Shown: one piece after another, positions 26,033 to 39,545 of the stretch
Numbering within the stretch: position 1 is the stretch's first letter
Layout: each line of letters opens with the position of its first letter
Source of the DNA: a virus
Virus record (IMG/VR): IMGVR_UViG_3300009136_000018
Span: 1 to 39,545 of that record
DNA: 39,545 nucleotides
Direction: 5' to 3' (one strand)
Program-made: the position numbers and the translations under genes
The notes under the pieces: generated by a model
Databases searched by the model: none
What the model saw: the letters and a program-made list of their open reading frames with translations, nothing else
What the model was told of the DNA's origin: nothing

Positions 26033-26347
26033 GTCGGTCCCCTTCTTTTTTTTCTTCCCGATGAGCGGGTTCGGTTCCGTGGCGCAGGAGTTCTCCTACA
26101 CCAGCAGTGTATGCGAGACCCCCACAGCGAGCGTGTTTCGGACACGAGGCGTGCAGGTCGGCAACTGTCAGTGCTTTCCAACACCGTCCGGTCTCGCGGC
26201 TTGCCGATACGTTCACCGCTGCGCTTGGCCGGTCCCCCAGTAGCGCGCTATGCCATGCCGCTGGTGCTACGAGAGCGTCCAGCACAGCATGGCCGTGACG
26301 AGATAGTTGTATGCGCGGGGGTTGACGCTCTTCTTGAGCATCACCAC

Positions 26348-26471: not shown

Positions 26472-26581
26472 GATTGTCACCGTGCAACGTCTCTGGCGCC
26501 CCCTCCTTCGGGAGGGGGTGGTCGGACCCTCCCTGAAGCGCTACTCTCTGGTCTCCTGTGACGTTGCAACCGGAGACAATC
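26472..26581 (+). repeat. Long imperfect inverted repeat in the ERF leader
   Basis: Left arm 26472-26491 contains GATTGTC then TGCAACGTC; right arm 26560-26581 contains GACGTTGCA then GAGACAATC. The arms are complementary with two or three extra bases between the two blocks. The right arm includes the ERF Shine-Dalgarno (GGAG at 26572-26575), 8 nt before ATG 26584. If transcribed from an upstream promoter, the folded leader would cover the ribosome site; as DNA, the arms are two inverted copies of the GACGTTGCA element. Confidence 0.65.
26497..26520 (+). other. Very stable UUCG hairpin nested in the ERF leader
   Basis: CCCCCTCC-TTCG-GGAGGGGG: 8 perfect bp closed by the ultra-stable UUCG tetraloop, with a further G-U and C-G pair at the base. 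It lies between the arms of the large inverted repeat. No U run follows, so it is not a standard terminator. It could nucleate folding of the leader or cause pausing. Confidence 0.6.
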
Positions 26582-28288: not shown

Positions 28289-28685
28289 CAACGTCCAGAT
28301 CATCGGGCGCCTCGGGAAAGACCCCGAGACCCGGTACACCACAGGTGGCAAGGCAGTCACCAAGTTCAGCGTCGCCGTCGAGGGCTACGTGCCGAAGGAC
28401 AGCGACAAGCCGAAGCACACCGAGTGGTTCAACGTCGTCGGCTTCGACAGGCTGGCCGAGGTGTGCACCGAGTACCTCGGCAAGGGTGACGAGGTGTACG
28501 TGCAGGGTGAGCTGGAGACCCGCGAGTACGAGAAGGACGGGCAGCGCCGGTTCTTCACCGAGCTGAAGATGCGCAACATGCAGATGCTCAAGACCAAGGC
28601 GAAGCCGGCGCACCAGGAGAGCGCGCCCCGAGCCCAACCGGAACAGGCGCAAGTCCCTGATTTTGATGACGACATCCCCTTCTGA
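28275..28685 (+). CDS. ssb: Single-stranded DNA-binding protein
   Basis: 136 residues. OB-fold pattern: NLNNVQIIGRLGKDPETRYT, KFSVAVEGYVPK, EWFNVVGFDRLAEVCTEYL, KGDEVYVQGELETREYE. The C-terminus is VPDFDDDIPF, the same as the last eight residues of E. coli SSB, which dock host repair and replication proteins. Ribosome site GGAGGG at 28265-28270, inside the previous gene. It protects ssDNA during ERF-mediated annealing and probably recruits host SSB partners. Confidence 0.93.
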   Translation: MANLNNVQIIGRLGKDPETRYTTGGKAVTKFSVAVEGYVPKDSDKPKHTEWFNVVGFDRLAEVCTEYLGKGDEVYVQGELETREYEKDGQRRFFTELKMRNMQMLKTKAKPAHQESAPRAQPEQAQVPDFDDDIPF

Positions 28686-28693
28686 TACCGGGG

Positions 28694-28739
28694 GTTGACA
28701 CTCAACTGCCAGTTGACTATGCTTCGTCTTGACGTTGCA
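28694..28739 (+). promoter_or_regulatory. Early promoter A with two operator palindromes
   Basis: TTGACA (28695-28700), 17 nt, TATGCT (28718-28723). Palindrome GTTGA-CAC-TCAAC (28694-28706) covers the -35 box. A second palindrome, TCAACT-GCC-AGTTGA (28702-28716), shares its left half with the first and fills the spacer. GACGTTGCA follows the -10 box after 7 nt (28731-28739), then AGGAGA and the ATG at 28754. A dimeric repressor on either palindrome would block polymerase. Confidence 0.75.
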
Positions 28740-28753
28740 TAGGAGACTGACAG

Positions 28754-29653
28754 ATGACGAAGCGAACCGACCCCCACCACGAGAACGTACTGCGCCCCGA
28801 GGATTACGAGGTGCAGGAGTACATCTACACCAAGCTCCCCCCGCTTGGCTTCGACATGAGTGCCGCCGGCCTGGCGCACTTTCGCACGATGATTGACGAG
28901 TTCCGCGCCGACATGGAGCGGGTCAACAGCCTGCTCGCCCAGAAGGGCAACATGATCCACGGTGGCTGGTCCTCGTGCGACCACTGCGGCGCGCACTACC
29001 ACCACGGTGCCCTGCTCAAGCACATCCCCACGGGTCACTACATCACCGTCGGCTGGCAGTGTGCCGAGCAGCGCTTCGAGATGGGCAACGCCGCCTTCCA
29101 GCGCAAGCGCATCGAGAAAGTGATGAAGGCGATCCGCGCCCGTCGCGGTCGCTTCTCCAAGCTGCGTCGCTTCGTCGAGGAGAACCCCAGCGTGCGCCTG
29201 CTCTCGCAGTACCGCGACATCCAGTTCTTTAAGTCGCTGCGCACTCAGCTGATGGAGCGCTGCACCTTGAGCGAGAAGCAGGTCGACTGCATCCCCGCCG
29301 CCATCGAGCGCCAGGAGAAGTGGAAGGCCGAGCGCATCGAGCGCGACGAGCGCATGCCCGAAGCCACCCCCGTCGTCGAGGGTCGCATCGACATCACGGG
29401 TGAGGTGCTCTCCACGAAGCTGCAGGACAGCGACTACGGCACGCAGTACAAGTGGCTGGTCATCGACGACCGCGGCTTCAAGGTGTGGGGCACCATCCCT
29501 GCCGCTGCGCTCGACGGCGAAGAGACCCTCGCCACGCTGCGTGGTAAGCGCGTGAGCTTCACCGCTGCCGTCACGAAGAGTGACCGCGACGAGAGCTTCG
29601 GATTCTACAAGCGCCCGACCTGCCCGAAAGTGCTCGCCTCAACTGCGAGTTGA
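28754..29653 (+). CDS. Zinc-finger and OB-fold-like protein, unknown function
   Basis: 299 residues. The N-terminal half has SSCDHCGAHYHHGALLKHIP, then TGHYITVGWQCAEQRFEMGN: CxxCG, two His and a later Cys, as in a zinc knuckle seen in similar phage proteins. Around residues 130-190 it is helical and basic. The C-terminal third reads like an OB fold: GEVLSTKLQDSDYGTQYKWL, FKVWGTIPAAAL, RGKRVSFTAAVTKSDRDESF and a closing FYKRPTCPKVL. This fits nucleic-acid binding, possibly in recombination. Its stop codon lies within promoter B. Confidence 0.65.
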   Translation: MTKRTDPHHENVLRPEDYEVQEYIYTKLPPLGFDMSAAGLAHFRTMIDEFRADMERVNSLLAQKGNMIHGGWSSCDHCGAHYHHGALLKHIPTGHYITVGWQCAEQRFEMGNAAFQRKRIEKVMKAIRARRGRFSKLRRFVEENPSVRLLSQYRDIQFFKSLRTQLMERCTLSEKQVDCIPAAIERQEKWKAERIERDERMPEATPVVEGRIDITGEVLSTKLQDSDYGTQYKWLVIDDRGFKVWGTIPAAALDGEETLATLRGKRVSFTAAVTKSDRDESFGFYKRPTCPKVLASTAS

Positions 29654-29695
29654 CACTCAACCCCGAGTCATGGTACTATGCGCATTGACGTTTCA
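29639..29695 (+). promoter_or_regulatory. Early promoter B with mirrored operator palindromes
   Basis: TTGACA (29650-29655), 18 nt, TACTAT (29674-29679). TCAACT-GCG-AGTTGA (29639-29653) lies upstream and GTTGA-CAC-TCAAC (29649-29661) covers the -35; they share one half-site. The order is the mirror image of promoter A. GACGTTTCA starts 7 nt after the -10 box (29687-29695). The upstream palindrome contains the stop codon of the preceding gene. Confidence 0.72.
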
Positions 29696-29711
29696 CATGG
29701 GAGCACTGCGA

Positions 29712-29990
29712 GTGAGCGCATCAGTAGTCAAGTGGCGCACCGACGAGGGAGGGGTGGTCACGGCCATCCTTCTCGGTCGGGGGCGCAAGTACCTGCGGAT
29801 CATCCCCATCGACAGTGCCGGCATCAAGCTCGCGAACGTCCCCTTCGACGAAGAGCGACACATGGTGCCGGCGACGTTCCGCGACAAACCCTACCCCGTC
29901 AAGCGAGCTGCCAGGAGCATCCTGAAGTTCGGCAAGACGTTCGGCATCACCAAGACTGCGAAGGCAGCACTGAAGGAGACGTTGACATGA
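29712..29990 (+). CDS. Small basic protein, 92 residues, unknown function
   Basis: Starts at GTG 29712, with GGGAG 8 nt upstream and directly after promoter B; an ATG at 29697 is in frame but has no spacing for a ribosome site. It reads VVKWRTDEGGVVTAILLGRG, RKYLRIIPIDSAGIKLANVP, then a basic C-terminus (VKRAARSILKFGKTFGITKT). The stop overlaps the next ATG. Not recognised. Confidence 0.65.
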   Translation: MSASVVKWRTDEGGVVTAILLGRGRKYLRIIPIDSAGIKLANVPFDEERHMVPATFRDKPYPVKRAARSILKFGKTFGITKTAKAALKETLT

Positions 29991-30340
29991 GCACCAGCTA
30001 CGACGATTGCCAAGACATCGCGAAGGAGCGTGACCGCGAGGATCGCGAGTACGAGATCCGCCAGCGTGCGCTCGGTCCCATCGGCCAGCGCCCCAGCGAG
30101 CCAGGCCACCGCAAGCCGCTGCGCCAGCTCGTGCGCGACAGGGTCATCGCCACCGTCGCCGAGCTTCGCGACAACGCCGAGCTTGCCACCGGTTACGGCA
30201 CGACGCACTACGCACCCGGCGACCCGGTCGGCGAGGATCACTTCGTGGACGGTCCCTGCTGGGTGACCCACGTCGACCTGATGTCCGAGCTGGACGACCT
30301 GCTCGACGACATGAACACCATCGAGAAGGAGGGCTGGTGA
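29987..30340 (+). CDS. Acidic helical protein, 117 residues, unknown function
   Basis: ATG 29987 overlaps the stop before (ATGA). The first half is highly charged (IAKERDREDREYEIRQRALG), the second has THVDLMSELDDLLDDMNTIE, an acidic helix. It has no known motif. It is coupled to genes on both sides, within the promoter-B transcript. Confidence 0.62.
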   Translation: MSTSYDDCQDIAKERDREDREYEIRQRALGPIGQRPSEPGHRKPLRQLVRDRVIATVAELRDNAELATGYGTTHYAPGDPVGEDHFVDGPCWVTHVDLMSELDDLLDDMNTIEKEGW

Positions 30341-30708
30341 TGACCGCTATCGTGAAAATCATCGAGGTGCGCGACGTTGCCACCTGCATGCCCTGCCTCG
30401 CCATCCAGCCCAACCCCCAGACCGAGGCCGAGGTGTGGGCATTCAGCCGCACTGGCTACGGACTGGAGCCCTCCGACCACCGTCAGTACGTCCTGATGGT
30501 GCCGCTGAACCCAGGCCAGGGGATCATGACAGCCGACCCCTACTGCCAGCCAGGGGCCCCCGAGCGCCGCACGATGTTCGAGGCCCACCGCTACGTCATC
30601 AAGCACTGGGACGAGCTGTCCTCGGGCGACGTGGTGGATGTGGAGTACATCATGGGCGAGACCGAAGAACCGAAACGCCCCGACCGCTACTACAAGATGG
30701 GGGGTTGA
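30340..30708 (+). CDS. Unknown protein, 122 residues
   Basis: The start is ATG 30340 (overlapping TGA) or an in-frame GTG at 30337. It reads IVKIIEVRDVATCMPCLAIQ, with CMPC near the start, then FEAHRYVIKHWDELSSGDVV and DVEYIMGETEEPKRPDRYY. Probably a compact beta-alpha protein. Its stop codon lies inside operator C. Family not recognised. Confidence 0.62.
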   Translation: MTAIVKIIEVRDVATCMPCLAIQPNPQTEAEVWAFSRTGYGLEPSDHRQYVLMVPLNPGQGIMTADPYCQPGAPERRTMFEAHRYVIKHWDELSSGDVVDVEYIMGETEEPKRPDRYYKMGG

Positions 30709-30754
30709 CACTCAACCCCTGGTTCAGTACCCTAGTCCTGCGATTGACGTTGCA
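30701..30754 (+). promoter_or_regulatory. Early promoter C with a long operator palindrome
   Basis: TTGACA (30705-30710), 17 nt, TACCCT (30728-30733). GGGGTTGA-CAC-TCAACCCC (30701-30719) is a perfect 8-bp-arm palindrome over the -35 box and the previous gene's stop codon. GACGTTGCA lies at 30746-30754, here 12 nt after the -10 box, followed by GAGGAGA and ATG 30774. Confidence 0.7.
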
Positions 30755-30773: not shown

Positions 30774-31061
30774 ATGGCTAAGTCCAACCTTACGCTCGCC
30801 GACCAGCTCGGCACCCTTCAGGCCACCATCGAGGAGATGCAGCGCGAGGAGCGCGCCATGAAGGATGCCCTCATCGAGGAAGGCCTCGGCACCCACGAGG
30901 GTGATCTCTACGACGTGACCGTGTTCGAGTCCGAGCGCAAGACCGTCGCCTGGAAGCGCGTCGCTGAGAAGCTCGGCGCCACCGTGCAGATGATTGCCGG
31001 CAACACGAAGCGCTCGGTCACCACCAGCGTGAAGTGCACCGCGAAGAAGGTGGTCCGGTAA
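30774..31061 (+). CDS. Small protein, 95 residues, unknown function
   Basis: ATG 30774 with GAGGAG 8 nt upstream, directly after promoter C. It opens with a helix LADQLGTLQATIEEMQREER. The segment THEGDLYDVTVFESERKTVA, WKRVAEKLGATVQMI and NTKRSVTTSVKCTAKKV looks like a small phage family in which GDxYxVxV and WxxxAEKL are conserved. Role unknown. Confidence 0.65.
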   Translation: MAKSNLTLADQLGTLQATIEEMQREERAMKDALIEEGLGTHEGDLYDVTVFESERKTVAWKRVAEKLGATVQMIAGNTKRSVTTSVKCTAKKVVR

Positions 31062-31062
31062 C

Positions 31063-31308
31063 ATGCGACTGCAATGCCTGCGTCTGTGTTGGGTGCCGGC
31101 TGCCCCTTACGAGCGGTGGTCGGTACTCGACGCAGACGACAACCACCTCGGGTGGGTCGACCAACTGAGCCCGAGCTGCTTCTGGGCTCTCACCCCCGAC
31201 GACGAGCGCCTGCCGCAAGCCAAGAGCAGGACCGTCGCCGCCCAACAACTGCAGATGCACCACGCACTGAGGAGCACCAATGAAACCGATCAACGCACTG
31301 TGGGCTGA
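31063..31308 (+). CDS. Small protein, 81 residues, unknown function
   Basis: ATG 31063, one base after the previous stop. It reads CLRLCWVPAAPYERWSVLDA, HLGWVDQLSPSCFWAL, then a polar tail. The gene overlaps the XRE-type gene by 29 nt. Cys-containing but not in zinc-finger spacing. Confidence 0.55.
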   Translation: MRLQCLRLCWVPAAPYERWSVLDADDNHLGWVDQLSPSCFWALTPDDERLPQAKSRTVAAQQLQMHHALRSTNETDQRTVG

Positions 31309-31549
31309 CACCCTGTCCCGCCACCTCCACCACCTGCGCATGACTCGCTCCGAGTTCGCCGGCCTGATGGGAGTGAGCGAGGCGGCAGTCTACAAGTGGC
31401 TGCGCGGTGGCACGGCGACGCTCGACAACCTGTCTCGTGCTGCTGTCATCTTCAAGGTCCACCCGGCACGTCTGCTCGGTGGAGCTTCAGTCAACAAGGG
31501 CGCCATCAACATCTGGTACGACGCCCTCCACAAGGAATCGAGAAAATGA
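31280..31549 (+). CDS. Cro/CI (XRE)-type helix-turn-helix protein
   Basis: 89 residues from ATG 31280, with GAGGAGC 6 nt upstream. Residues 10-60 have the XRE layout: LSRHLHHLRMTRSEFAGLMG then VSEAAVYKWLRGGTATLDNL, LSRAAVIFKVHPARLLGG. The turn and recognition helix (EFAGLMGVSEAAVYKW) are well formed. It is the best candidate for the protein that binds the GTTGA/TCAAC operators of promoters A to C, because it is in the transcript of promoter C. Direct binding is not shown. Confidence 0.8.
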   Translation: MKPINALWADTLSRHLHHLRMTRSEFAGLMGVSEAAVYKWLRGGTATLDNLSRAAVIFKVHPARLLGGASVNKGAINIWYDALHKESRK

Positions 31550-33108: not shown

Positions 33109-33126
33109 AGGAAGGGGAGACCACGA

Positions 33127-33144
33127 GCACAGGGACGTGCTCAC
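33127..33144 (+). other. Small hairpin between early genes
   Basis: GAGCAC-AGGGAC-GTGCTC, a 6-bp perfect stem, in the 54-nt gap after the 233-residue gene. The GTG start of the next gene lies 19 nt downstream. No U run, so a weak pause or RNA-processing site is more likely than a terminator. Confidence 0.4.
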
Positions 33145-33162
33145 CTACCAGGAGACACGCTC

Positions 33163-33369
33163 GTGCCCCACGCCAAGCACAACACCGACGACTACCTCTT
33201 CGCCTACCTCTCCGTCCACGACGACGAGGATGCCCCTGACGGCGCCTGGTGGGCCAAGCTCGAAGACGGGGTGACGTATTACAACGAGCAGCACGGCGAG
33301 ACCCTCGACCCGCACGAGACCGTGCACGCCTACCTCCGACACAAGGGGGCCGACGATGACCAGGACTGA
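33163..33369 (+). CDS. Small acidic protein, 68 residues, unknown function
   Basis: Starts with GTG 33163, with CAGGAGA 10 nt upstream. Acidic (AYLSVHDDEDAPDGAWWAKL, LDPHETVHAYLRHKGADDDQ) and without known motifs. Overlaps the next gene by 14 nt. Confidence 0.55.
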   Translation: MPHAKHNTDDYLFAYLSVHDDEDAPDGAWWAKLEDGVTYYNEQHGETLDPHETVHAYLRHKGADDDQD

Positions 33370-38868: not shown

Positions 38869-39545
38869 TACGGCAGCAACAGCGGCACGGTGATCGCCAC
38901 GTCAACGATACCGTTCACTGCTCCAGGCGCCACTATCTCGATGCGGTCGCCGGCAGCCAGGGTCTCATCGCCCCCCGCCAAGTCTGCCCACACGCCATCG
39001 TTGGAGCCGAGGCTGAACGTCATCGAGCCGAGCGCTGTGGTGCCGCCGGCCAGCAGCTCCTTGTTGACCGTGAACACGGTGCCAGCGCTGGGCGGCGTGC
39101 CGCAGAACCCGGTGCCGGCGATGCCGTCGAAGTCGTAGGTTGCCGAGCGCGTCATTATGTGGCGGATCTTCCCGGTCGCTGACGGCGTCGGGTCGAAGGT
39201 GCTGACATCGAAGAACGCAGCAACAGCCGCCGACGCAGCCGCAGCTGCAGCGCTGTTCGCGGCGTTGGTCTCGGAGGTGGCCGCATTCGTCTCCGAGGTG
39301 GCGGCGTTGGTTTCCGAGGTGGCCGCATTCGTCTCGCTGATGGCTGCCGCCGCCGCACTGTTGGCGGCGTTGGTCTCGCTGGTCGCAGCATTGCCTTCAG
39401 ACGCAAGGGCAGCCGCAGCGCTCGCAGCCGCGTCACCCGCGCTGGTGGCCGCGTTGCCTTCGCTGACGGCTGCAGCTGCCGCGCTGTTGGCGGCGTTGGT
39501 CTCCGAGGTCGCTGCGTTCGACTCACTCGCGGCAGCGGCGGCCTC
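38868..39545 (-). CDS. Tail fibre, C-terminal part, cut by window edge
   Basis: Open from 39545 down to TAA 38870..38868, 225 residues. The first 110 residues are the heptad shaft (repeats such as ATSETNA, with Ala-rich blocks); then FFDVSTFDPTPSATGKIRH and an internal Met at 39155. The end is a small beta domain: ATYDFDGIAGTGFCGTPPSA, AGGTTALGSMTFSLGSN, GDRIEIVAPGAVNGIVDVAI. It is in the same frame as the fragment ending at position 1. An apparent separate gene starting at 39155 is simply the C-terminus of this protein. Confidence 0.8.
   Translation of the reverse strand, partial: EAAAAASESNAATSETNAANSAAAAAVSEGNAATSAGDAAASAAAALASEGNAATSETNAANSAAAAAISETNAATSETNAATSETNAATSETNAANSAAAAAASAAVAAFFDVSTFDPTPSATGKIRHIMTRSATYDFDGIAGTGFCGTPPSAGTVFTVNKELLAGGTTALGSMTFSLGSNDGVWADLAGGDETLAAGDRIEIVAPGAVNGIVDVAITVPLLLP
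39247..39545 (-). repeat. Seven-residue (21-bp) tandem repeats in the fibre shaft
   Basis: Near-identical 21-bp units encode SETNAA followed by Thr or Asn, interrupted by Ala-rich blocks of AAAA or AAAAA. Further copies lie at 10-110 of the window, so the array continues across the ends. Such repeats form trimeric coiled shafts and vary in number by slippage. They are also a natural breakpoint for short-read assembly. Confidence 0.8.

Follow-up and report, generated by a model that had tools for sequence, protein, structure and literature searches.

The lambda family of phages has CI/Cro-type (XRE) repressor regulons, and some of the stoperators of Cluster A mycobacteriophages overlap a -35 box. 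In phi13, changing the half-site AGTTCAYR to AGTTGAYR abolished high-affinity binding (PMC8516035), and at the OL/OR sites of the restriction-modification controller C.Esp1396I adjacent strong and weak sites are filled cooperatively, the weak one being part of the -35 (PMC3758141). Here we analysed a 39,545-base IMG/VR record of an uncultured virus (64% G+C; "the window" throughout, meaning this whole stretch of DNA) in which three promoters of the replication-gene region, A, B and C, carry palindromic sites built from TCAAC/GTTGA half-sites; they are well supported as the presumed operators of one repressor regulon. The design is a familiar one, met here in a group of environmental podoviruses for which it offers a concrete, testable regulon. 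No published description of this operator was found in the literature searched, an absence of little weight as few subscription papers were covered.

Genome context and the three promoters

Similar repeat coding sequence is found, on one and the same strand, at the two window ends (1-690 and 39155-39545), and the record may thus represent the whole of a circularly permuted genome, opened within a single gene. The - strand structural genes are of podovirus type (a portal/head-tail adaptor of phrog_332, a PF19821 capsid, tail and internal virion proteins), and the terminase is nearest to those of Cronobacter phage Ss1 (53.5%), Vibrio phage VA-RY-3 (51%) and Burkholderia phage BcepC6B (42%). The + strand encodes Erf, a DUF7694 protein, Gp157, SSB, the genes behind the three promoters and an 89-aa XRE protein. 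No tRNA was found in the window, no cI-cro divergent pair was recognised in it, and neither an integrase, an S24 repressor nor restriction-modification genes were recognised among the window proteins scanned; as the scan gave no integrase and no S24-type CI, the system was classed as an XRE regulon rather than as a lysogeny switch. A single PDB sequence match to triosephosphate isomerase was judged spurious. A hairpin, GAGCAC-N6-GTGCTC, lies in the leader (33109-33162) of a small gene at 33163.

All three promoters lie on the + strand and have TTGACA at 17-18 nt from the -10 box, as the first-pass annotation had read: promoter A at 28695-28723 (spacing 17, TATGCT), promoter B at 29650-29679 (18, TACTAT) and promoter C at 30705-30733 (17, TACCCT). 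A consensus promoter scan detected A and B and missed C, the -10 of which is weak. We infer that their timing is early. Promoter A would drive a 299-aa gene (phrog_4265, 28754-29653) whose stop codon lies within operator B, and promoter B three overlapping small genes (92, 117 and 123 aa, 29712-30708), the last of which has its stop codon within operator C. Two small genes (95 aa and 81 aa, 30774-31308) stand between promoter C and the gene of the XRE protein (31280-31549), all on the + strand.

Paired sites and a leader box

The 13-bp palindrome GTTGACACTCAAC (GTTGA-CAC-TCAAC) was found, as had been claimed, over the -35 of each promoter, exact at 28694-28706, 29649-29661 and 30704-30716, always on the + strand and with only these three copies in the whole record. 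The second palindromes reported earlier for A (TCAACT-GCC-AGTTGA, 28702-28716) and B (TCAACT-GCG-AGTTGA, 29639-29653) are likewise present, on opposite sides of the -35, and at C the first palindrome does extend to arms of 8 bp, giving the 19-bp GGGGTTGA-CAC-TCAACCCC (30701-30719) on the stop codon of the 123-aa gene. Coding and control overlap in the way described, with operators over the preceding stop codons at B (TGA 29651-29653) and C (TGA 30706-30708); at A, GTTGA begins 8 nt past the SSB stop codon.

Exact TCAAC-N5-GTTGA was observed three times in the window where 0.05 were expected, one of these matches, at 1528 and inside a gene, probably being due to chance, and exact GTTGA-N3-TCAAC was observed three times where 0.04 were expected; a scan of half-site spacings from 0 to 15 gave zero exact occurrences in the window beyond the N5 and N3 pairs. 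The composite of three half-sites occurred twice in the window and in none of 400 third-order Markov shuffles. Written as a polar unit, GGGGTTGA-N3-TCAACY-N3-RGTTSA, it matched forward at A (20 of 20 fixed positions) and at C (19 of 20) and backward at B (20 of 20), where GGGGTTGA-N3-TCAACY-N3-RGTTGA runs on the - strand at 29639-29664, reversed with respect to the promoter; the best score in 100 shuffles was 17. As that consensus was derived from these sites, the 26-mer of A alone, GGGGTTGACACTCAACTGCCAGTTGA, is the fairer test: used as a query it recovered B from the opposite strand and C from its own (21/26 each), against a maximum score of 20 in 200 shuffles. The 13-bp dyad also keeps a GGGG or CCCC flank on the expected side at all three promoters, with both sides complete at C. 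A sequence at 26318-26343 (GGGGTTGACGCTC, about 240 bp upstream of Erf) resembles the left part of the operator unit; as a fourth site it was rejected, its 15/20 being within the shuffle range and a -10 being absent.

The composite thus points one way at A and C and the other way at B, and since duplication would give one orientation only, the reversal at B makes the set more than a duplicated promoter. One way to read the 26-bp polar composite is as a single unit in which the 19-bp and 15-bp dyads would be bound by different, mutually exclusive regulators, its orientation setting the order in which the promoters are shut off; we regard this as distinctly unlikely.

A different description reads the promoters in one register, with two 15-bp slots, O1 and O2, lying 18 bp apart at every promoter, of which O1 ends in the -35 and O2 fills the spacer as far as the -10. 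Scored out of 10, each pair places a strong site next to a weak one at the fixed distance of 18 bp, all on the + strand. At A, the weak O1 (GATACCGGGGGTTGA, 28684-28698, 7/10 in the common register) has its right half in the -35 region and O2 (TCAACTGCCAGTTGA, 28702-28716, 10/10) is a perfect 15-bp dyad. At B the order is the reverse, with the strong O1 (TCAACTGCGAGTTGA, 29639-29653, 10/10) on the stop codon of the 299-aa gene and a weak O2 (TCAACCCCGAGTCAT, 29657-29671, 7/10), and at C a weak O1 (AAGATGGGGGGTTGA, 30694-30708, 6/10) precedes O2 (TCAACCCCTGGTTCA, 30712-30726, 9/10). Where two sites of this kind face each other across the 3-bp gap, their inner halves have the appearance of the 13-bp palindrome, one half of which is the -35 itself, and GTTGACACTCAAC is read as the O1/O2 junction.

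The 15-bp description has evidence against it, in that there are only three promoters, the weak slots score 6-7/10 and these are partly the -35 itself; it neither requires nor explains the GGGG/CCCC flank of the 13-bp dyad. Mainly because of this flank, we kept as a rival the view that the palindromes truly overlap and share a half-site (GGGGTTGA-CAC-TCAACCCC and TCAACT-N3-AGTTGA), read by one protein in two registers or by two competing proteins. It would account for a 13-bp dyad that is identical and perfect at 3/3 promoters, with its flank on the expected side, and for C, which has a perfect 19-bp palindrome but a 15-bp site of only 9/10. We nevertheless consider it unlikely, since the -35 box itself makes up one half of the 13-bp dyad, and the same dimer would be required to recognise half-sites paired convergently (8 bp) as well as divergently (10 bp); the occurrence of the two sites in other phages, given below, also speaks against it.

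Each promoter is followed by a further element that the first-pass annotation had overlooked, a TTGACGTTKCA box that precedes the start codons of 28754, 29712 and 30774 by 25-30 nt. The copies at A (28729-28739) and C (30744-30754) read TTGACGTTGCA and that at B (29685-29695) reads TTGACGTTTCA, all on the + strand. A fourth + strand box with one mismatch (GTGACGTTGCA, 26558-26568) stands 26 nt before Erf (ATG 26584), where there is no operator pair; box and operators are therefore separable. At A and B, transcription would be expected to begin at the box. The box keeps a steadier distance from the start codon than from the -10, which makes it as probable that it acts in the leader RNA, or during initial transcription, as that it serves as a DNA site. 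Between the divergent region and the Erf gene there is also a strong GC hairpin, CCCCCTCC-TTCG-GGAGGGGG (26500-26519), with no T-run.

The three promoters share the -35, the start of the spacer and this leader box, and the palindrome at C could fold, where the upstream gene ends, into an RNA stem of 8 bp, features that would be expected if there were no regulation, the promoters being recent duplicates and the palindromes, if active, RNA hairpins at gene ends. This we hold to be very improbable. Duplication does not give a second palindrome that changes sides of the -35 between A and B, nor the reversed composite at B; the second palindrome of A, lying between the -35 and the -10, is for that reason absent from A's own transcript. 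A terminator reading of the palindromes was rejected, as none of the three appeared in the terminator scan.

Sites in other phages and the candidate repressor

Achromobacter phage AchV4 (L146; NC_052974.1, 28000-59489) held 25 near-exact 15-bp sites (9 exact) at N5 only, against 2 for a reversed-pattern control. Its one exact 13-bp site stood where two 15-bp sites, at a distance of 18 bp, adjoin; this paired site copies the layout of B, its -35 (TTGAGT) and -10 (TATACT) occupying the same positions as those of promoter B. One of the 15-bp sites of AchV4 lies directly against the start of gp78, an XRE gene. Among phages with relatives of gp78, Klebsiella phage YMC16 (57%; L257, NC_052975.1, 1-50000) had five exact 15-bp sites at N5 and, over the 50 kb read, no exact 13-bp match, SS2019XI (44%) had one exact and 14 near-exact 15-bp sites, and AH2 (40%) showed no excess of 15-bp sites. 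The dispersed TTCAAC-N5-GTTGAA-like sites of AchV4 and YMC16 lie mostly near gene starts, and they form a putative operator set that is apparently undescribed; a word search of the AchV4 paper (PMC7996906) gave no mention of palindromes or operators.

These phages bear on the two descriptions of the window sites. The 15-bp site often stands alone in AchV4 and YMC16, and the exact 13-bp site was met a single time in AchV4, as a junction, and was absent from the 50 kb read of YMC16, which argues against overlapping palindromes. What had been described as two palindromes sharing a half-site is better read as two tandem 15-bp sites at a distance of 18 bp. TCAAC-N5-GTTGA, of 15 bp, would then be the probable autonomous operator, and the 13-bp palindrome would form where a strong and a weak site meet. 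The case shows how a palindrome that arises where operators adjoin in tandem may be taken, wrongly, for the operator proper.

Perfect 15-bp pairs at 18 bp were also found in three bacterial genome contigs (L287, L303 and L290). That in Sorangium cellulosum (L303:2918-2950) lies between two genes, and in the Phenylobacterium contig (L290:7800-7856) three TCAAC-N5-GTTGA sites stand in a row between two genes. The layout of promoter A (-35, O2 in the spacer, -10) was seen between CI-like (HTH_3 and Peptidase_S24) and Cro-like genes in a temperate contig (L229), beside a divergent HTH_3 (XRE) gene in a Treponema contig (L308), and in L167, where no XRE gene was seen within its 5 kb. The recurrence of this geometry in unrelated phages, like the sites, their geometry and their excess over chance in the window, was found directly, and it suggests that phages unrelated to one another, and whose XRE proteins are also unrelated, share one grammar, a 15-bp TCAAC-N5-GTTGA that in some cases forms a pair at 18 bp.

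The scans for analogues demanded half-sites and did not demand a -10, an intergenic position or a particular neighbour. Most of their hits were coding coincidences, so good analogues are few, and such hits in the collection scan, including L235 (inside an ORF), were dropped; one discarded hit encoded VDNQP-VxIHVLQGE, which we take to be a DnaK motif. The sole match to the exact promoter-plus-leader pattern in the viral contigs (L004) was a coding coincidence in an AT-rich phage, and L099, with repeated GTTGAC..GTCAAC, was set aside as it had no clear promoter layout.

Among relatives of window genes, the portal relatives of about 90% (L014-L018, L082) were fragments outside the promoter region and held no exact sites. 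Relatives of the SSB, 299-aa, XRE and 95-aa proteins came from distant loci or were not found, and the loci checked for the 299-aa and 95-aa relatives held no exact sites. The podoviruses with related terminases (Ss1, VA-RY-3 and BcepC6B) showed no excess of the 15-bp site at N5.

The 89-aa protein at 31280 (Pfam HTH_3, E 3.4e-6; PHROG transcriptional repressors/regulators) is the best candidate for the binder, a putative one, since the window proteins tested included no other recognised regulator and its gene is the third after promoter C. No relatives of it were found in phage or viral collections, and it showed no significant similarity to AchV4 gp78 or gp71. Its single-sequence AlphaFold model was poor (pLDDT 66), too poor to be used as a guide to specificity, and in Foldseek gave weak matches to C proteins (E about 0.1) and to lambda repressor. 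The operators might be real and be bound by a host regulator or by an unrecognised phage DNA-binding protein, with the XRE protein acting elsewhere. Several early-region proteins are without a known family, so that a second DNA-binding protein could be missed, and the 31280 protein shows no detectable relation to any regulator linked here to the 15-bp site. We judge this quite unlikely all the same, given that the XRE protein is the sole regulator recognised, lies in the operon of promoter C, and that the half-site goes with XRE regulators in L229, in L308 and in the phages carrying gp78 relatives.

The earlier proposal of a repressor regulon with paired sites has been kept in its main part, as the sites are operator-like and placed to block RNA polymerase and their pairing makes cooperativity plausible; its "interlocking" palindromes are re-read as tandem 15-bp operators. 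We infer repression, cooperativity and the identity of the binder as follows. It is rather probable that one dimeric HTH repressor acting on TCAAC-N5-GTTGA controls A, B and C through a strong and a weak slot at each, the 31280 XRE protein being the likeliest repressor. The predicted dimer would recognise half-sites one helical turn apart, occupying its strong site at O2 of A and C and at O1 of B, and would then aid a second dimer onto the weak neighbouring slot. Together the two dimers would cover the -35 and the spacer and exclude RNA polymerase. From its position downstream of promoter C, the candidate repressor would limit its own synthesis, in a Cro-like shut-off.

Comparison with known systems

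In the CI/Cro-type regulons of lambda and of phi13/TP901-1, a phage-encoded HTH protein acts on palindromic operators placed over lytic promoters; the window likewise has palindromic sites that overlap more than one promoter and a phage-encoded XRE/HTH_3 protein in the region, here a candidate, for which autoregulation would be expected. It differs from CI/Cro-type switches in having no recognised cI-cro divergent pair or integrase, and its TCAAC/GTTGA half-site differs from the AGTTCAYR of phi13/TP901-1 (PMC8516035). With the restriction-modification controller C.Esp1396I it shares a small XRE dimer (a candidate here) and adjacent unequal sites, the weak one in the -35. The C-box of C proteins, however, has GAC half-sites (GAC...GTC) and a TATA spacer, whereas the window has TCAAC/GTTGA with a GC-rich spacer; C proteins also activate their own promoter and go with restriction-modification genes, none of which were recognised among the window proteins scanned.

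AchV4 and YMC16 have the same half-site and N5 spacing as the window, and the 18-bp pair of AchV4 matches the placement at promoter B. They are, by contrast, siphoviruses with an integrase and many dispersed sites, no similarity is detectable between their gp78 and the 31280 protein, and the binder is putative there too. The stoperators of Cluster A mycobacteriophages are alike in being repeated short phage repressor sites of about 13 bp, but are asymmetric, monomer-bound and genome-wide (PMC9283540), whereas the window sites are palindromic and confined to three promoters. The window system is neither of the Cluster A stoperator nor of the phi13/TP901-1 type, and resembles a CI/Cro-type or C-protein tandem operator set.
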